Positions 4,993 to 22,462 of a stretch of 24,726 nucleotides of DNA are shown one piece after another. The stretch covers positions 1 through 24,726 of the IMG/VR virus record IMGVR_UViG_3300006916_000359; one strand, given 5' to 3'. Within the stretch, counting starts at the first letter, position 1, and every line of letters starts with the position of its first letter. The translations under genes and the position numbers were made by a program. Source of the DNA: a virus. The notes beneath the pieces were generated by a model. That model worked only from the letters and a program-made list of their open reading frames with translations, did not search any database and was not told the origin of the DNA.

Positions 4993-5174
4993 GAATTCAC
5001 TCCTAGTTCCATTTCGAGGACCGCATATTTAGGGATGCGGAGCCGGTTGGCAATCGTCAGACTGTCTAACCGGCCATCCTTCGCCATGTTATGTATCGTC
5101 TTTTCATGGATGCGCCATCTCACAGAAAGTTCCTTTGGGGTGAAGTATGCGACATCTGTCTCAAGATTTGTCAT
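4860..5174 (-). CDS. excisionase-like helix-turn-helix protein
   Basis: The start at 5174 gives 104 residues. Residues 10-55 (FTPKELSVRWRIHEKTIHNM, then GRLDSLTIANRLRIPKYAV) match the MerR-type helix-turn-helix of phage excisionases and DNA-binding HTH_17 proteins. The C-terminal part is basic and low in structure. The gene overlaps the end of the upstream gene by 14 bases and, unusually, the start of the integrase by 133 bases in a different frame. The overlap could mean the true protein ends near the HTH domain in relatives. The likely role is control of excision direction, with possible repression of the integrase. Confidence 0.65.
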   Translation of the reverse strand: MTNLETDVAYFTPKELSVRWRIHEKTIHNMAKDGRLDSLTIANRLRIPKYAVLEMELGVNSWNQTLLKEKQSGTSGTKGRKVSRQPSALAAQKRLKRKSGPKSS

Positions 5175-5610
5175 AAGACTTTTTCCATTCTTTGAAGCGG
5201 TCAACAAGATTGTCGAGCCTCTGCCGTGCCTCCTTCTTGTAAGGGTCAGACAATTCCGCTCGACTTTCGATTTGGAGTTCCGCCTTCATAGCCATGGCGG
5301 CTTGCTCTACATTATGAGCGCCCAAGAATGACTGGAAGCTCTCGTCCTTACAGAGCATCCCGGCACGGGCGACGTATTTCTTGAGGGGGTCATCTGCGGA
5401 CTGCACAAGTTCCGGGTTGTCGTAGTCCAGCGCCTTCAGCCCTATGGCCAGTGGTGTCCCCGGCTGCGCGTGAATGAGCCAGTCCGCTGCTCCAAACTCT
5501 GCGACCGTCAACGTAAGCTGCCACATACCATCATTGGTCTGGCGCATGTTGTGCTTCTTAGCCTCAAACCCAGAGACGTTTGTAAAGGCGTGATGTGGAA
5601 CCGGCTTCAT
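5161..5610 (-). CDS. conserved-looking phage protein of unknown function
   Basis: The protein has 149 residues. The middle (LTLTVAEFGAADWLIHAQPGTPLAIGL) could form a beta-rich core; the C-terminal half is helical, charged and likely coiled coil (ESRAELSDPYKKEARQRLDNLVDRFKEW). There is no signal or membrane segment. I do not recognise the family. It is the first gene after a terminator-like hairpin and a structured leader, and lies directly upstream of the excisionase-like gene, with which it overlaps. A role in recombination, excision or DNA metabolism is suggested only by position. Confidence 0.55.
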   Translation of the reverse strand: MKPVPHHAFTNVSGFEAKKHNMRQTNDGMWQLTLTVAEFGAADWLIHAQPGTPLAIGLKALDYDNPELVQSADDPLKKYVARAGMLCKDESFQSFLGAHNVEQAAMAMKAELQIESRAELSDPYKKEARQRLDNLVDRFKEWKKSYDKS

Positions 5611-14701: not shown

Positions 14702-14714
14702 CTCCATTAGGGTT
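14702..14714 (-). repeat. orphan copy of the AACCCTAATGGAG leader
   Basis: The full 13-base leader used by the minus-strand accessory genes is present, but no gene follows on that strand. Its GGAGA is directly paired with UCUCC in a hairpin (six-base loop), which would hide the Shine-Dalgarno. It may be a relic of a lost gene. Confidence 0.6.
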
Positions 14715-15781: not shown

Positions 15782-15794
15782 CTCCATTAGGGTT
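15782..15794 (-). promoter_or_regulatory. AACCCTAATGGAG leader/RBS of the gene at 15771
   Basis: The leader overlaps the arfA stop codon (AACCCTAA). Its CCC and the bases before it also form the outer stem II strand of HHR1. Confidence 0.8.
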
Positions 15795-15975
15795 CGATGG
15801 TGACTGCCATCGTCAGACACTGGGCATCACCCCAGCATGACCGGACCGGCATCTGCCGGTCACGGTTTCGGCCTTTTCGTGAATACGAACCCTTGCCCTT
15901 CCGCGCTTTGACCACGCGGGTCTTGAACACTGGCGACCGGACAGTAGCCGCCAGTGCGTTCTTGCGTTTAAACAT
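15787..15975 (-). CDS. arfA: ArfA-like alternative ribosome-rescue factor with a ribozyme in its ORF
   Basis: The ATG at 15975 overlaps the previous stop (TGATG) and follows GAGGGAG; the ORF has 62 codons. Residues 6-36 (NALAATVRSPVFKTRVVKAR, then KGKGSYSRKGR) match E. coli ArfA ([20 protein letters not shown], then KGKGSYMRKGK). ArfA enters stalled ribosomes lacking a stop codon and recruits RF2; the basic KGKGSY..RKGK tail lies in the mRNA channel. Codons 27-62 also contain a type II hammerhead ribozyme whose cleavage site is in codon 46, ten residues after the conserved tail. Cleavage would leave a non-stop message and a truncated but probably complete functional core. In E. coli the same outcome is reached by RNase III cutting or termination within arfA. 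Confidence 0.85.
   Translation of the reverse strand: MFKRKNALAATVRSPVFKTRVVKARKGKGSYSRKGRNRDRQMPVRSCWGDAQCLTMAVTIEP
15790..15892 (-). ncRNA. HHR1: type II hammerhead ribozyme inside arfA
   Basis: Read on the minus strand: outer stem II GGGUUCG/CGAACCC (7 pairs), inner stem II GCC/GGC, then GAAA. Stem III is CCG..CGG plus GACCGGC/GCCGGUC with loop AGAU and one bulged U, followed by UC and the cleavage point (between 15839 and 15838). Stem I is AUGCUGGG/CCCAGUGU (8 pairs, two G-U). Then come CUGACGA and one extra U before stem II. Stem II is the open end, so the form is type II. A competing hairpin CGAUGG/CCAUCG could switch it off. Predicted from pairing only. Confidence 0.78.
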
Positions 15976-17113: not shown

Positions 17114-17126
17114 CTCCATTAGGGTT
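17114..17126 (-). promoter_or_regulatory. AACCCTAATGGAG leader/RBS
   Basis: It supplies the Shine-Dalgarno GGAG 7 bases before the ATG at 17106 and lies 10 bases after the HHR2 hairpin. Confidence 0.85.
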
Positions 17127-17136
17127 GTTGGATTAT

Positions 17137-17211
17137 GTAGCGAGACGCTACGACTGCGGCCCAGTCGGGCCACAGTTTCGCTGGTGTCTCACGCCAGCAT
17201 CGTCAGGTAGC
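17137..17211 (-). ncRNA. HHR2: type I hammerhead ribozyme
   Basis: Minus strand: stem I GCUAC/GUAGC; core CUGACGA plus one extra U; stem II GCUGG/CCAGC with loop CGUGAGACA; GAAA; stem III CUGUGGCCC/GGGCCGCAG (9 pairs) with loop GACU; then UC and cleavage between 17152 and 17151. GUCUC follows stem I and is complementary to GAGAC of loop II. After cleavage GUAGC can pair with the downstream GCUAC (17137-17141). The UGA stop of the upstream gene is part of the CUGACGA core. Confidence 0.88.
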
Positions 17212-17436
17212 TTTCTTCATGCGTTTAAACTTGAAACGAAAGTGAAGAACCTTCCGGCCATACCAGAGCCGCTGATAGACATTGCTCCGGGCAAAGCCGT
17301 AGATGCCAAACTTGGACGGCCTTCTAAACCGCTTCCAAACCAGTACCTTGTAACCAAAAAGGGCGAGGTACCCCCCGCCCAGTTCTTCCCATGGATTCGG
17401 CCATGTCGTTGGGATGTCCAGTTTAGTTTTCTTCAT
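17203..17436 (-). CDS. small basic protein
   Basis: The ATG at 17436 with GGAGGAA upstream gives 77 residues. The protein is strongly basic and aromatic (VLVWKRFRRPSKFGIYGFARS, then QRLWYGRKVLHFRFKFKRMKK), so it may bind nucleic acid or the membrane surface. The N-terminus (IPTTWPNPWEELGGGYLALFGY) is more neutral. No family is recognised. Its stop codon TGA lies in the HHR2 core, so terminating ribosomes sit on the ribozyme. A GTTTAAAC site (17223-17230) lies in the last codons. Confidence 0.55.
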   Translation of the reverse strand: MKKTKLDIPTTWPNPWEELGGGYLALFGYKVLVWKRFRRPSKFGIYGFARSNVYQRLWYGRKVLHFRFKFKRMKKAT

Positions 17437-17611
17437 AGATTCCTCCAGCTTTCTGATTGGCACGTTCAAGGTGACGCACCAACATTTCCGCGCGTTGTTC
17501 GAGGGTGAAATCTGTCGGTGAGTTGTCCACCCACGCGCTGTTCTTCTCCTCCCATGGGAGGGATTGGACCTGATGCAACAGGTCATAGGCCATAGCCAGT
17601 TCGCGGTTCAT
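17423..17611 (-). CDS. small helical protein
   Basis: The ATG overlaps the preceding stop (ATGA), and GGAGGA lies upstream. The product has 62 residues, acidic and helical (LAMAYDLLHQVQSLPW, then TLEQRAEMLVRHLERANQKAG). It ends by overlapping the next start. No family is recognised; it could be a small antitoxin- or anti-host-type protein, but nothing specific shows this. Confidence 0.5.
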   Translation of the reverse strand: MNRELAMAYDLLHQVQSLPWEEKNSAWVDNSPTDFTLEQRAEMLVRHLERANQKAGGIYEEN

Positions 17612-18237
17612 GCTGCGTCCTCCTTCCAGAACTCATGCGCGTGACCCAGTTTCTCTGGATAAATCCCATCCTTGCCGTCGCTATCTACGAAAAGCTGAAG
17701 CGCAGCCTCGTAACGACCGCCCAGCATCTTGTAGTTCATCAAGGTGATTGATGGGTCATGGCCAAAGAGGTGGTCCTCTGTGATGTCAAAGGTGACGACC
17801 TTTTTAATCTGCGACGGTGGAATCTTGCCCATGTGAGCAAAGGTTCCCAGAGCTTCCTGTGACCACCACGCCATGCCGGGATAGTCCGGCGCGTTATTGC
17901 GCCAGAACGCGGTCCTGTCCTCAAGCGACAACTCATTCAGCCAGAGAAACTCTTCGTCCATCCACCTCTGTTGAGCCAGCGCATCCTCGTCGGCCACAAA
18001 ATTGCCGGGGTAGGGGTCTACTTCAATCACGACGCCGCGCAGTTTCTTGCCATTCCGCTGCTTCACTATCGTTGCAGCGGCTGTGGCGTAGTAGATGGCG
18101 TAGGCTGTTGTCAGGTATACGCGGTCAGTTGCAGAAGGGAACTCCTTCCACACGCCCTTGCGCTTGCCGCGTGGAATCAGGCCATGCTTTTCGATGCTGT
18201 TTAAACAGTTCTCAGTAGTCCCGTGAAAGTACCTCAT
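17608..18237 (-). CDS. ADP-ribosyltransferase-fold-like protein
   Basis: The ATG at 18237, 7 bases after GGAGG, gives 209 residues. The N-terminus MRYFHGTTENCLNSIEKHGLIP, then DRVYLTT with AIYYATAAA, has the pattern HGT..NxxSIxxxGLxP...VYLT seen at the NAD-binding start of ADP-ribosyltransferases and Tpt1/KptA-like enzymes. RGVVIEVD may be the next strand. A convincing late catalytic Glu/Gln is not obvious. If active it could modify a host protein or nucleic acid, as phage ARTs do, or remove a 2'-phosphate from RNA. The fold is inferred from motifs. It contains a GTTTAAAC site at 18199-18206. Confidence 0.55.
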   Translation of the reverse strand: MRYFHGTTENCLNSIEKHGLIPRGKRKGVWKEFPSATDRVYLTTAYAIYYATAAATIVKQRNGKKLRGVVIEVDPYPGNFVADEDALAQQRWMDEEFLWLNELSLEDRTAFWRNNAPDYPGMAWWSQEALGTFAHMGKIPPSQIKKVVTFDITEDHLFGHDPSITLMNYKMLGGRYEAALQLFVDSDGKDGIYPEKLGHAHEFWKEDAA

Positions 18238-18407
18238 TTCCGCACCTCCTCGACAATCACCGGCCACCAGAAGATGATGATGCCAGAGATGCCCATGACA
18301 AAGGTCTCAGGGTCAGCGCCATGCGTAACGAACATGGCGTCGAACAATGAGGCCAGCATCAGAGCCAGCCCCAGAACGTGGGTAAAGATTTGTGTTGGTG
18401 TCGTCAT
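18234..18407 (-). CDS. small two-TM protein
   Basis: The ATG at 18407 is the likely start, because an in-frame ATG at 18422 is part of the leader AATGGAG. The product has 57 residues with two hydrophobic helices (THVLGLALMLASLFDAMFV and FVMGISGIIIFWWPVIV) and a short basic-acidic end. It overlaps the ART-like gene by ATGA. It is probably an inner-membrane protein; no family is recognised. Confidence 0.5.
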   Translation of the reverse strand: MTTPTQIFTHVLGLALMLASLFDAMFVTHGADPETFVMGISGIIIFWWPVIVEEVRK

Positions 18408-18416
18408 AAGACGGTC

Positions 18417-18429
18417 CTCCATTAGGGTT
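18417..18429 (-). promoter_or_regulatory. AACCCTAATGGAG leader/RBS
   Basis: It sets the start of the two-TM protein at 18407, about 9 bases after GGAG, and directly follows the 3' hairpin of HHR3. Confidence 0.85.
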
Positions 18430-18430
18430 A

Positions 18431-18503
18431 GTAGCGAGACGCTACGACCGGAGCCTCGCGGCCCCGGTTTCGACGCTGTCTCACGGCGTCATCATCAGGT
18501 AGC
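18431..18503 (-). ncRNA. HHR3: type I hammerhead ribozyme
   Basis: Minus strand: stem I GCUAC/GUAGC; CUGAUGA plus extra U; stem II GACGC/GCGUC with loop CGUGAGACA; GAAA; stem III CCGGGGCC/GGCUCCGG with the GNRA tetraloop GCGA; UC and cleavage between 18446 and 18445. GUCUC after stem I pairs with GAGAC of loop II. The downstream GCUAC (18431-18435) can form a post-cleavage hairpin. The upstream stop TAG shares its G with stem I. Confidence 0.9.
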
Positions 18504-18745
18504 TAGAATGGTACGTCGTCATCGTCGGGTTGAACCGGCGCTGGCGTGGCGGTTTGCCCGGCCAGCATTTGCCGGTACTCCTCGTCGGTCCCCTGCCATT
18601 CAGATTCGGGATGCGGCACCGGTGGCCCGGAGTAGTGCGGGTTCGGATACCAGACATCCCGGTCTGAAAGCACCCACGCCCAGTCAGGGTTTTGTTCCCC
18701 GATGGCGTAGGCATACTGGCGGTCAGCCTCTGCAATGTGGTTCAT
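18503..18745 (-). CDS. small protein with SSB-like C-terminal tail
   Basis: The product has 80 residues and overlaps the previous gene by ATGA. There is no OB fold: the first 60 residues are polar, Trp- and Pro-rich (NPDWAWVLSDRDVWYPNPHY, then PPVPHPESEWQGTDEEY). A Pro/Ala/Gln linker follows, and the protein ends in DDDDVPF. That end copies the acidic tip of SSB (DDDIPF) by which SSB recruits exonuclease I, RecO, RecQ, PriA and others. It may bind these proteins in competition with host or phage SSB, or recruit them. The stop abuts stem I of HHR3. Confidence 0.6.
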   Translation of the reverse strand: MNHIAEADRQYAYAIGEQNPDWAWVLSDRDVWYPNPHYSGPPVPHPESEWQGTDEEYRQMLAGQTATPAPVQPDDDDVPF

Positions 18746-19038
18746 GCCTTTGCCTCCTCCAGATAGCCGATGATTTCGTCGGCCTTGTCAGAGATGTCAG
18801 ACAGCCAGCCCTCAATCTCACTGTCGGCATATTCGAGGCTGTTGATGGCCTCCTGTGCGGCCTCGCCCTTGTCACTGTACTGAAGGCTTTCGGGCATGTT
18901 GTCGAAGGCGTCCTGTTCGTCACAGACGATGCCCCCGACATCTTCCTGCATCTCCTGCACAAGAGCGGTCATCTTGTTTTCGATGTATTGGATTTCGCCA
19001 ATCACTTTGTCGATGGCTTTGCGACGGTCTTTATTCAT
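18742..19038 (-). CDS. acidic coiled-coil phage protein
   Basis: The ATG at 19038 is 6 bases after GGAG, and the product has 98 residues. It is acidic and helical throughout (AIDKVIGEIQYIENKMTALV, then AFDNMPESLQYSDKGEAAQE, then EEAKA), with the pattern AFDNxPESLQxSxxGEAxQEAI known from many hypothetical proteins of phages and Rhodobacterales. It likely forms a helical hairpin or coiled coil. Function is unknown. It forms a two-gene unit with the SSB-tail protein, between HHR4 and HHR3. Confidence 0.6.
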   Translation of the reverse strand: MNKDRRKAIDKVIGEIQYIENKMTALVQEMQEDVGGIVCDEQDAFDNMPESLQYSDKGEAAQEAINSLEYADSEIEGWLSDISDKADEIIGYLEEAKA

Positions 19039-19044
19039 TGGTTT

Positions 19045-19057
19045 CTCCATTAGGGTT
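19045..19057 (-). promoter_or_regulatory. AACCCTAATGGAG leader/RBS
   Basis: The leader continues GGAGAAACCAATG, the same spacing as at 19501 and 20126. A GTTTAAAC site (19058-19065) separates it from HHR4. Confidence 0.85.
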
Positions 19058-19065
19058 GTTTAAAC

Positions 19066-19140
19066 ACAGCGAGACGCTGCGACCGGGGCCGGGTTGGCCC
19101 ACGGTTTCGACCGGGTCTCAGTCGGTCATCATCAGGCAGC
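19066..19140 (-). ncRNA. HHR4: type I hammerhead ribozyme
   Basis: Minus strand: stem I GCUGC/GCAGC (changed in register with HHR2/3); CUGAUGA plus extra U; stem II GACCG/CGGUC with loop ACUGAGACC; GAAA; stem III CCG..CGG plus GGGCC/GGCCC, bulged U and loop AACCC; UC and cleavage between 19081 and 19080. GUCUC after stem I pairs with GAGAC of loop II. The downstream GCUGU (19066-19070) can re-pair with GCAGC. The upstream gene reads through the core and stops inside loop II. Confidence 0.88.
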
Positions 19141-19285
19141 TAATATTCTCAAGCTGGCGGCGCAGCTTGGTGCAGTCTTCACCAAGGCGCTCCGCCTTCT
19201 TTAGCTTCTTCTTCAGCGTGACAAACGTCCGGCGCTTGTCACGGTGGACGGCACAGTGCCGCTCGTAGATTCTCTTGCGTTTCAT
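19118..19285 (-). CDS. small basic protein whose 3' codons enter HHR4
   Basis: This 55-residue frame starts at an ATG that overlaps the previous stop (ATGA). It is highly basic and helical (KRKRIYERHCAVHRDKRRTF, then VTLKKKLKKAERLGEDCTKL), so it may bind nucleic acid. The last residues ISCLMMTD are encoded by stem I, the CUGAUGA core and the first stem II strand of HHR4, and the stop is in loop II. Coupling to the previous gene and the fitting overlap support it as a real gene. No family is recognised. Confidence 0.55.
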   Translation of the reverse strand: MKRKRIYERHCAVHRDKRRTFVTLKKKLKKAERLGEDCTKLRRQLENISCLMMTD

Positions 19286-19494
19286 TTCGCAGTCTCCACC
19301 CTCAACCGGGCCTCGGCGTCAGCGAGGCTGTCATGCTCGGCGACGAGCCACTCGTTGCGGTTCTCGTCCACCTCGACCACCCAGTGGACCGGCTGGTCAT
19401 CGCGGATGGCGGGGTGGATGTAGAAGCCGACCGGGCGCTTGCCGATGTGCTTGTTGAGGGACTGGATGTGCTTACGCAGTTTTTCGATGTTCAT
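19282..19494 (-). CDS. hypothetical protein, about 70 residues
   Basis: The ATG at 19494 follows GGAG of the leader by 6 bases. After a short basic helix (NIEKLRKHIQSLNKHIGKRP) comes a beta-rich part (VGFYIHPAIRDDQPVHWVVEVDENRNEWLVAEHDS) and a final helix (ADAEARLRVE), the look of a small double-stranded-RNA-binding-like or DUF2188-like alpha/beta fold. The family is not certain. It forms a two-gene unit with the basic 55-residue protein. Confidence 0.5.
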   Translation of the reverse strand: MNIEKLRKHIQSLNKHIGKRPVGFYIHPAIRDDQPVHWVVEVDENRNEWLVAEHDSLADAEARLRVETAK

Positions 19495-19500
19495 TGGTTT

Positions 19501-19513
19501 CTCCACTAGGGTT
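19501..19513 (-). promoter_or_regulatory. AACCCTAGTGGAG leader/RBS (A-to-G variant)
   Basis: This is the leader with ATGGAG changed to GTGGAG; the Shine-Dalgarno GGAG is unchanged. It serves the gene starting at 19494. No hammerhead precedes it. Confidence 0.8.
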
Positions 19514-19525
19514 TTCTTGCATATC

Positions 19526-19565
19526 CTGGGTCAGGCCCAGAGGGTCGGGGAATTACTCCCCGACC
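19526..19565 (-). other. double hairpin in place of a ribozyme
   Basis: Minus strand: GGUCGGGG/CCCCGACC (8 pairs, 19543-19565), which contains the upstream UAA stop in its loop and stem edge, then CUGGG/CCCAG (19526-19540). No CUGANGA or GAAA core is present. It sits where the other gaps have hammerheads and may serve as a processing, pausing or 3'-stabilising structure. Confidence 0.5.
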
Positions 19566-20116
19566 GGCACGAGGCGGTCATGCGCCATGTCAGACTGGCA
19601 TACAGGGCAGGACACACCACCGACCTCGTCTATGGCGAATTGCAGATGCTTGCGGGTTGTGCGGAAAGCAAAGCCGCAGTCAGCGTCGCTGCACAAAGCC
19701 TTCATCATGCGGGTGGACTGCTTCTTGATTTTGGTCACGTCCAGCGACTCATGCGGGTAGGTGTTGCAGTAGTCACCGCCGGGTACATCGACTTTGAGAA
19801 TCACGCGCCGGTCTTCCACAATTTTGTGGATGTAGCGCATGGCGTCCCAGACAGCCTGTCGGGCGTCTTCGGCGTTGTCGATGGTGGGATTGATGAACAC
19901 TTCCCACTTGCCACCCGTGGACTGGTCCGGTGTGTAGACCTTGGCGTTCTGCTTGCCGCCCCGGCAGTTGTAGCCGAATCCGCAGGACAGTTTCACGTCA
20001 GCCTTGACGAAGCCGACACTGTGCCAGACTTGGCGCGACAGTGTGCATTCATGGTTTGAGGCCCAGTACATCAGGTCATCAAATGTGGCTTGCAGCCACT
20101 CTTCACGGTTTTGCAT
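19553..20116 (-). CDS. SprT-like zinc-ribbon protein lacking the HExxH site
   Basis: The ATG at 20116, 8 bases after GGAG, gives 187 residues. The pattern VKLSCGFGYNCRGGKQNAKV, then YTPDQS...GGKWEVFINPTID, then a C-terminal FAFRTTRKHLQFA and CPVCQSDM matches phage SprT-like proteins (SCGFP, WSPE, FEIFISP, HELVHA, RTTRKWL, CPVC). Here the helix that should read HELVHA is WDAMRYIH, so the catalytic Glu and first His are gone. It would keep the DNA- or protein-binding fold without protease activity. The family link is from memory of motifs, and loss of the site is read directly. Confidence 0.6.
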   Translation of the reverse strand: MQNREEWLQATFDDLMYWASNHECTLSRQVWHSVGFVKADVKLSCGFGYNCRGGKQNAKVYTPDQSTGGKWEVFINPTIDNAEDARQAVWDAMRYIHKIVEDRRVILKVDVPGGDYCNTYPHESLDVTKIKKQSTRMMKALCSDADCGFAFRTTRKHLQFAIDEVGGVSCPVCQSDMAHDRLVPVGE

Positions 20117-20125
20117 TGGTTTTTT

Positions 20126-20138
20126 CTCCATTAGGGTT
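20126..20138 (-). promoter_or_regulatory. AACCCTAATGGAG leader/RBS
   Basis: It precedes the ATG at 20116 and lies immediately after the HHR5 hairpin (20139-20155). Confidence 0.85.
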
Positions 20139-20213
20139 ACGGTATTGGCTACCGCGACCGGGACCATGACGGCCCCGGTTTCGGCCCCAGCCACAGGGCC
20201 ATCATCAGGCGGT
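20139..20213 (-). ncRNA. HHR5: type I hammerhead ribozyme
   Basis: Minus strand: stem I ACCGC/GCGGU; CUGAUGA plus extra U; stem II GGCCC/GGGCC with loop UGUGGCUG; GAAA; stem III CCGGGGCC/GGUCCCGG (8 pairs) with loop GUCAU; UC and cleavage between 20156 and 20155. AGCCA after stem I is complementary to UGGCU of loop II, replacing the GUCUC/GAGAC pair of HHR2-4. ACCGU (20139-20143) can re-pair with GCGGU. The upstream stop TGA lies in the core. Confidence 0.9.
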
Positions 20214-21077
20214 TTCGTACTCCGAATAGGACCGGAGGACGTTCTTGATTTGGGCCTCAAAGACCTTCATCGCACCGTCGAGGGTGCCGCACATGTCGTG
20301 CGTGTCATTGATGGCCGGGACGCGGAAGATAGTGTCGCCGTCGAACATGCGGAGCGGGTACTGGTCAGCGGAGCCGTAGCTCGAACCCCAGCCGCCCATC
20401 GCGCGACCGCAGCTTGCCCACATGTCGGCAAACTGTTCCTTGACGCGCCAGTGAATGCGGCGGTGCATGGATGCGTGAGCCAGCGCAAAGGCAAGGCCGG
20501 GATAGTCGAACGGCTGGTCTGATTCCTTGACCCGCACCCTGACGCTGCATTCCTTGCCGCTAGCTTCGGTGCAGAAACCCATCCAGATTTCGCAGCGGAT
20601 GCCCTCGGCTTCGATGCATTCGACATAAGCCAGAAGCGCCGCGCCGTAATTCATAATCTGGTCTGCCTTCACACCAGCATGGCGGGAGCCGTCCACCACC
20701 AGTCGCAGGACCGATGGCTTGGTGACCTCGTCGTATTGCATCATGCAGTCAGGCATGCCAGCGCAATACATTGGCACGTTAGGGCTGAACCCGGCCACGT
20801 CATGCAGCACCTCGCGTATAGGCGCACGGTCCAGACGCTGGATGCCGCTGTCGGTCAGCGCGGCCAGTTTGACCATGCCGTCATGCCAGCCGTTGATGGC
20901 AAGGTCTGCGGCCTCGTCATAGGACGCCGTGCCGGTAAACTTGGTGCGCTTGGCGTTTTGTTCCTCGCTCACGGTAAATTTAGTCTGTTCGCGTGGCATG
21001 TTGCGGACAGCCACCATGTCGCGGACGTTGTCGAACTCGACGTGGACCTCGTTGCCGGTTTGTTTCAAGATTCGCAT
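20205..21077 (-). CDS. VWA-like partner of the MoxR ATPase
   Basis: The product has 290 residues, with ATG 9 bases after GGAG of the leader. The centre reads VLRLVVDGSRHAGV, resembling strand one and the MIDAS region of a von Willebrand A domain, though the DxSxS motif is incomplete (DGSRH). NYGAALLAYVECIEAEGIRCEIWM looks like the following helix and strand. Phages often carry such proteins beside a MoxR/CbbQ-type AAA ATPase, and the pair is thought to remodel protein complexes. Its stop TGA is inside the HHR5 core. Confidence 0.65.
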   Translation of the reverse strand: MRILKQTGNEVHVEFDNVRDMVAVRNMPREQTKFTVSEEQNAKRTKFTGTASYDEAADLAINGWHDGMVKLAALTDSGIQRLDRAPIREVLHDVAGFSPNVPMYCAGMPDCMMQYDEVTKPSVLRLVVDGSRHAGVKADQIMNYGAALLAYVECIEAEGIRCEIWMGFCTEASGKECSVRVRVKESDQPFDYPGLAFALAHASMHRRIHWRVKEQFADMWASCGRAMGGWGSSYGSADQYPLRMFDGDTIFRVPAINDTHDMCGTLDGAMKVFEAQIKNVLRSYSEYETA

Positions 21078-21085
21078 AGCGAAAC

Positions 21086-21098
21086 CTCCACTAGGGTT
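21086..21098 (-). promoter_or_regulatory. AACCCTAGTGGAG leader/RBS (A-to-G variant)
   Basis: Its GGAGG is the Shine-Dalgarno of the VWA-like gene at 21077; it follows the HHR6 hairpin by about 8 bases. Confidence 0.8.
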
Positions 21099-21106
21099 GT
21101 GTAAAC

Positions 21107-21182
21107 AGGGATAGCTTTCCCAGACGATGACCGGGTGCCGGTCACCGTTTCGGCTGGTAGCAAGCCAGCCTCGTCAGTGGGA
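21107..21182 (-). ncRNA. HHR6: type I hammerhead ribozyme with canonical core
   Basis: Minus strand: stem I UCCCA/UGGGA; CUGACGA with no inserted base; stem II GGCUGG/CCAGCC (6 pairs) with loop CUUGCUA; GAAA; stem III CGGUGACCGG/CCGGUCAUCG (10 pairs, one G-U) with loop CAC; UC and cleavage between 21123 and 21122. Released GGGA can pair with UCCC downstream (21107-21111). GCU in loop II can pair with AGC after stem I, a weaker version of the pseudoknot. The upstream stop TAA directly abuts stem I. Confidence 0.92.
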
Positions 21183-22388: not shown

Positions 22389-22462
22389 TGTGTTTCGGTG
22401 CTGCCGCACCCAAGGCCGCACTATGCGGCTCATCAGCAACCCGGCGTCAGGGTTGGACACAA
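22388..22462 (-). ncRNA. HHR7: type III hammerhead ribozyme candidate in the operon leader
   Basis: Minus strand: stem III UUGUGU/ACACAA (6 pairs, open end), C and cleavage between 22456 and 22455, stem I CAACCC/GGGUUG with loop UGACGCC, then CUGAUGA, a 33-base stem II region and GAAA. Stem II is irregular: GCCGCA/UGCGGC and GGUGC/GCACC are two hairpins in a row, so the second would be stem II and the first an insertion after CUGAUGA, at the place where HHR1-5 carry one extra U. Stems I and III are perfect; activity is less certain than for HHR2-6. Confidence 0.65.

Follow-up and report, generated by a model that had tools for sequence, protein, structure and literature searches.

Type I hammerhead motifs between phage genes combine a loop II-tail pseudoknot with a predicted hairpin at the new 5' end

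The stretch of viral DNA analysed here (the window; positions 1 to 24,726, i.e. the full 24,726 nucleotides, of IMG/VR virus record IMGVR_UViG_3300006916_000359) carries on its minus strand five type I hammerhead motifs, HHR2 to HHR6, each located shortly before a AACCCTARTGGAG leader and a start codon. We propose that these motifs probably act in intercistronic processing of messenger RNA (mRNA), with a pseudoknot before the cut and a hairpin after it. All five present the complete core (CUGANGA ... GAAA ... UH) and three stems, with stem I open. In HHR2 (17137..17211), core and stems are followed by a pseudoknot tail and a downstream repeat of the stem I 5' strand, in the order GCUAC CUGACGA U (19-nt stem-loop II) GAA (stem III) C^ GUAGC GUCUC GCUAC. 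An extra U is present between A9 and stem II in HHR2 to HHR5 and in HHR1, the type II motif described below, and is absent from HHR6.

The preliminary description of this DNA had proposed pairing between loop II and the bases immediately 3' of stem I, GAGAC facing GUCUC in HHR2, HHR3 and HHR4. Both strands are indeed found at the exact coordinates, namely 17186..17190 with 17142..17146 in HHR2, 18478-18482 with 18436-18440 in HHR3 (18431..18503), and 19115-19119 with 19071-19075 in HHR4 (19066..19140). They are identical in the three motifs and were counted as one observation. HHR5 (20139..20213) has UGGCU (20189-20193) opposite AGCCA (20146-20150), as had been noticed, with all five pairs changed and compensated relative to HHR2-4; its register is off by one because its stem-loop II measures 18 nt instead of 19. 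The GCU/AGC contact reported for HHR6 (21108..21182) also exists (GCU at 21163-21165), in a weaker form that reads U-A, (U.U), G-C, C-G, U-A in the common register; the HHR6 orthologue in a related contig (L367:6430) has GGUU:AACC. The pseudoknot thus spans 5 bp in HHR2-5 and 3 contiguous bp in HHR6; in the pseudoknotted hammerheads of Perreault et al. 2011 (PMC3088659), the closed loop and the 3' tail share 3-4 bp or more. The evidence for it is modest from the window alone and becomes decisive when related sequences are included.

The comparative set comprises 164 distinct type I hammerheads from 94 contigs, obtained by degenerate scans of viral contigs and one genome scan, and filtered with a structural scanner for the core, three stems and a score of at least 15 (14 in the window). 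The collecting scans required a G after the cleavage site, fixed stem III bases and a G at the base of stem II, and made no demand on loop II or the tail; additional copies were taken from the flanks of scan matches without those base demands. The genome scan yielded type I copies in L680 alone, and hence no cultured host. Stems I and II are 97.6% and 100% paired, with changes on both sides in nine of ten pairs. At least four Watson-Crick pairs link loop II with its own tail in 54% of copies (n=119), whereas swapped tails reach 16% and the upstream side 12% (z=13.4 for the mean length); with one hammerhead per contig, the values are 45% versus 8%. The contact keeps a single fixed register in the 59 distinct sequences whose stem-loop II measures 19 nt: hairpin positions 9, 10 and 11 pair with tail positions 5, 4 and 3 (93-95% Watson-Crick; z 7.4, 6.5 and 11). 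The 11:3 pair is seen as C-G, G-C, U-A and A-U (31% expected, z=11), and shifting the register by one or two lowers pairing across positions 8-12 from 74% to 18-32%. For an alignment of 17 sequences, hand-chosen to span the diversity, with stem III as a stub and the extra U omitted, the covariation score is 0.80 versus 0.31 when shuffled (0/500) and at most 0.25 when slid. GAGAC:GUCUC of HHR2-4 is the long form of this contact.

Judged by its covariation, the pseudoknot is real, and it is of an already known kind. PMC3088659 reports pseudoknots between a loop and the 3' tail in about 40% of representatives, with examples in each of the three hammerhead types; breaking the pairing in a related type II hammerhead lowers the rate by about 20-fold to more than 100-fold at 0.5 mM Mg, with rescue by compensation. 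The earlier view that a pseudoknot of 3-5 bp provides the contact between stems I and II fits both the covariation and these published kinetics, but it is incomplete: the tail bases can also form the loop of a competing product hairpin.

In HHR2 and HHR3, GUCUC sits within the inverted repeat GUAGC-GUCUC-GCUAC, and in HHR4 (GCAGC-GUCUC-GCUGU) and HHR5 (GCGGUA-GCCAA-UACCGU) the tail likewise runs into a repeat of the stem I 5' strand. The preliminary description mentioned neither this inverted repeat nor the extra U of HHR2-5 nor the upstream stop codons within the core. The HHR2 repeat (GCUAC, 17137..17141) constitutes the 3' arm of a product hairpin GUAGCG-UCU-CGCUAC with the tail strand in its loop region, and the corresponding arm of HHR3 lies at 18431-18435. 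Stem I of HHR4 (GCUGC/GCAGC) and its repeat arm GCUGU are altered jointly relative to HHR2/3. The HHR6 hairpin, GGGA-AAGCUA-UCCC, starts one base from the cut. The first five product bases are predicted to pair with a probability of 0.98-1.00 in HHR2-5 and 0.78 in HHR6 (calculated on its copy in L366, a duplicate of part of the window), which has one unpaired base. According to these folds, the 5' end of the cleaved mRNA can coincide with the start of a hairpin that carries the pseudoknot bases in its loop.

This arrangement is common among type I copies: beyond the stem I 3' strand, the sequence of the 5' strand usually occurs a second time. We scored a product hairpin when at least four wobble-weighted pairs extend from the first product base, with the 3' arm beyond stem I. 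Such a flush hairpin is present in 62% of contigs (one hammerhead each, n=94) versus 22% after shuffling and 19% after swapping with a different stem I; over all composition-preserving shuffles and swaps the range is 19-24%, and no resample reached the observed mean. The mirror-image test upstream gives 6%. When 0-2 unpaired 5' bases are allowed, the hairpin is found in 76% versus 39%. Pairing of the first five product bases likewise exceeds that obtained with dinucleotide-shuffled tails (per-contig p=2.7e-07), and in one contig, L057, the repeat arm tracks stem I in all five hammerheads. Only 1 of 27 type II copies has the hairpin, versus 11% expected (Fisher p=2e-8 against type I), in a comparison that is not perfectly matched since type II has a shorter open stem (mostly 3 bp). 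A closed stem I already heads the 3' product of types II and III, whereas a type I product would start single-stranded. The restriction of the hairpin to type I fits this topology.

In 153 of 162 type I copies, a reading frame of 50 codons or more comes from upstream and stops close to the ribozyme, and in none of these 153 is the stop located past the cut; the predicted cut therefore separates the messages without removing the upstream stop codon. In 43 of the 162 copies the stop is the UGA within the invariant CUGA of the core, including HHR5 (20205-20207) and HHR2 (17203-17205). This enrichment is only modest, because CUGANGA motifs overall end such frames in 18% of cases in the same contigs, and the absence of stops past the cut is the stronger signal. 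On the downstream side, 70% of copies have, no more than 90 nt from the cut, a start codon that comes with a Shine-Dalgarno-like motif and opens a frame of at least 30 codons, versus 19% of random positions. The sequence statistics thus show hammerhead cores, a covarying pseudoknot, a hairpin excess limited to type I and a stop-to-start position.

From these patterns we infer cleavage, its timing, strand exchange, release and the effects on stability as follows. HHR2-6 would divide a polycistronic phage transcript, each cut falling after one gene's stop codon and ahead of the next gene's Shine-Dalgarno. In the uncut RNA, loop II would pair with the tail directly 3' of stem I, docking stems I and II and keeping the tail from refolding. 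After the cut, the stem I 3' strand would swap partner and pair with the downstream copy of the stem I 5' strand, and this exchange would create a hairpin at or beside the new 5'-OH end. Hairpin formation would release the ribozyme half and render cutting irreversible. The upstream message would retain its stop codon, and the structured 5' end of the downstream message would resist 5'-dependent decay while staying clear of the ribosome-binding site, as the synthetic insulator RiboJ does by design. In its most general form, the proposal views the type I hammerheads of phages as processing cassettes with two states. The pseudoknot would stabilise the state that cuts; cleavage would then set off a strand exchange already built into the RNA, freeing the ribozyme and capping the downstream message with a hairpin that is flush with its 5' end and made of the same bases. 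Such a cassette would be a natural counterpart of RiboJ, for which types II and III, with stem I closed in the product, would have no need. We consider this broader formulation about evenly balanced between right and wrong.

Several points weigh against the proposed switch from pseudoknot to product hairpin. About 38% of contigs have no flush hairpin by the criterion used. When tails are swapped within a contig, the contrast is weaker (61% for own versus 46% for swapped tails) and too weak to decide, partly because stem I sequences in one contig resemble each other. The hairpin excess is also smaller for stem I sequences other than GCGG (37% versus 14-18%). When pseudoknot energy is left out, the hairpin belongs to the minimum-energy fold of uncut HHR2-5, and a hairpin formed first could slow cleavage. 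Finally, some ribonucleases attack 5'-OH ends regardless of a hairpin. The missing hairpins and the weak within-contig contrast would suit another explanation, in which the motifs are ordinary type I hammerheads with the pseudoknot already documented in PMC3088659, and the downstream repeat is a functionless result of base composition or shared ancestry. We regard this as unlikely, as composition-preserving controls stay far below the observed hairpin frequency, type II copies from comparable phages almost entirely lack the hairpin, and the repeats of L057 and of the window follow changing stem I sequences.

The energetics bear on a further alternative. In nested folding without the pseudoknot, the ribozyme and hairpin states of the window copies differ by up to about 2.3 kcal/mol, a difference so small that the pseudoknot and the cut can tip the balance. 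The hairpin is favoured before cleavage in 37% of all copies, and in 1% once pseudoknot stacking is added, an estimate that omits the loop penalty and is thus an upper bound for the pseudoknot. Plausibly, the pseudoknot shields the ribozyme state, and cleavage disconnects the strands and so tips the balance to the hairpin. Since the two states exclude each other and have almost the same energy in the uncut RNA, the hairpin could instead be a regulatory off-state that competes with stem I and the pseudoknot, with cleavage hinging on upstream translation or another signal; in copies whose core UGA ends the upstream gene, the ribozyme would lie under the ribosome as it terminates. This idea appears improbable to us: the stacking estimate, although lacking a loop penalty, favours the ribozyme in 99% of copies, no conserved ligand pocket or signal element was seen, and the ribozyme is transcribed ahead of the repeat.

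The Rfam models recognize few of these motifs. Hammerhead_1 matches none of HHR2-6 at its gathering threshold, which is the cut-off of a curated model rather than a defining biochemical criterion, and Rfam searches at gathering and with E up to 10 gave no type I match for HHR2-5. HHR6 has a weak similarity to RAGATH-1-hammerhead (RF03152; 28.4 bits, gathering 56.3). Six related loci rich in type I copies contain one Hammerhead_1 match, most of their type I copies being below the Rfam threshold; the models thus miss most of these type I ribozymes in the loci checked. Matches to snoU13, SAM_alpha and similar Rfam families in the window were rejected as chance. The extra U is common among relatives (82/118), although three of the five collecting patterns required it. 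That the motifs are chance or decayed hammerhead-like sequences, inactive, as the Rfam results and the extra core U of HHR2-5 might suggest, is highly improbable given that all stems and the pseudoknot covary, that relatives often share the extra U, and that the same scanner found no match at that score in 6.6 Mb of reversed sequences versus 164 distinct hammerheads.

The source record is a 24.7-kb virus stretch whose genes include an integrase, a ribonucleotide reductase and a primase/helicase. Its minus strand encodes, from about 22.5 to 14.7 kb, small genes mostly of unknown function, together with a CobS-like AAA protein (phrog_249) and a DUF7192 protein (20205-21077, minus strand, upstream of HHR5), whose gene ends at the UGA of the HHR5 core. 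Megablast of the window against known phages gave similarity to ribonucleotide reductase only, with no near relative in the phage collection. L366, a 6-kb IMG/VR contig, duplicates part of the window with 100% identity, and L367, a 7-kb IMG/VR contig, is a relative with 58% identity across the AAA protein. A search with the DUF7192 protein returned the L366 duplicate as sole match, and relatives compared by blast with known phages gave unannotated faecal phage records or nothing.

The AACCCTARTGGAG leader occurs in nine exact copies on the minus strand, each just before a start codon. The copy after HHR2, AACCCTAATGGAG (17114..17126), contains a Shine-Dalgarno-like GGAG; the others, identified by sequence match, start at 14702, 15782, 18417, 19045, 19501, 20126, 21086 and 22376. 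Allowing up to two mismatches gives 11 matches versus 0.8 expected. Conservation of AACCCTARTGGAG extends well past a Shine-Dalgarno, AACCCTAAT being the portion beyond, and L366 and L367 also carry it. The leaders without hammerhead (14702-14714 and 19501-19513, minus strand) are preceded by ordinary strong hairpins (GAGGGCAGGG..CCCTGCCCTC; GGTCGGGG..CCCCGACC plus CTGGG..CCCAG), and candidate hammerheads there were rejected. A scan with a leader-plus-hammerhead pattern gave two matches, both due to chance, with no hammerhead in either.

Two further hammerhead motifs precede this leader on the minus strand. HHR1 (15799..15873) is of type II; its loop I (GGUGA) can pair with the tail UCACC, and it scores 34.8 bits with Rfam Hammerhead_II (gathering 37). 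A possible 62-codon frame (15787-15975, minus strand) spans HHR1 and would be cut by it; this frame is probably not a real gene, as otherwise a stop-less message would result. A type III-like motif (22389..22461) lies before the CobS-like AAA gene. Its stem II region consists of two tandem hairpins rather than one helix and its activity is doubtful; at the orthologous site (about 5160-5215), L367 has a regular type III hammerhead with a regular stem II. Counting 22389-22461, the window would hold all three hammerhead topologies ahead of the same leader. Elsewhere, one contig carries ten type II hammerheads across 7.5 kb (L208:6400-13960, minus strand).

The motifs of the window belong to the same ribozyme class as Rfam Hammerhead_1 (RF00163), Hammerhead_II (RF02276) and RAGATH-1-hammerhead; HHR1 nearly reaches the Hammerhead_II threshold, and HHR2-5 have no Rfam match. 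They share with the hammerheads of Perreault et al. 2011 (PMC3088659) the core, the loop-to-3'-tail pseudoknot and an occurrence as clusters flanking single genes in prophages. These authors proposed that prophage clusters likely process long transcripts into gene-length mRNAs; the accessible part of their paper leaves the role of bacterial and phage hammerheads open, and mentions neither a downstream repeat, nor a product hairpin, nor an in-core stop codon. The searchable literature, which excludes most subscription journals and preprints, contains no later answer on this role and no report of a product hairpin. As far as it goes, it describes no product hairpin that excludes the ribozyme fold in phage hammerheads of type I. 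That the hairpin is limited to the topology with an otherwise single-stranded product, and that stops always precede the cut, points to intercistronic mRNA processing with end protection. The 5'-terminal stem-loops of ompA and papA stabilise mRNA, a paired 5' end being proposed to block 5'-dependent decay (references listed in PMC3997798); unlike these, the phage 5' end would arise from ribozyme cleavage and bear a 5'-OH. The arrangement also resembles RiboJ, which consists of the sTRSV hammerhead and a 23-nt hairpin (PMC6206723, PMC8794103) and gives higher expression, its terminal hairpin being suggested to stabilise the mRNA (PMC6206723). In both cases a self-cutting hammerhead would leave a hairpin ahead of the ribosome-binding site, as a prediction for the phage copies. 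RiboJ is engineered, with its hairpin described as placed after the ribozyme, whereas the phage hairpin would use the 3' strand of stem I itself together with the pseudoknot tail. Phage type I hammerheads may thus be a natural source of compact RiboJ-like parts.

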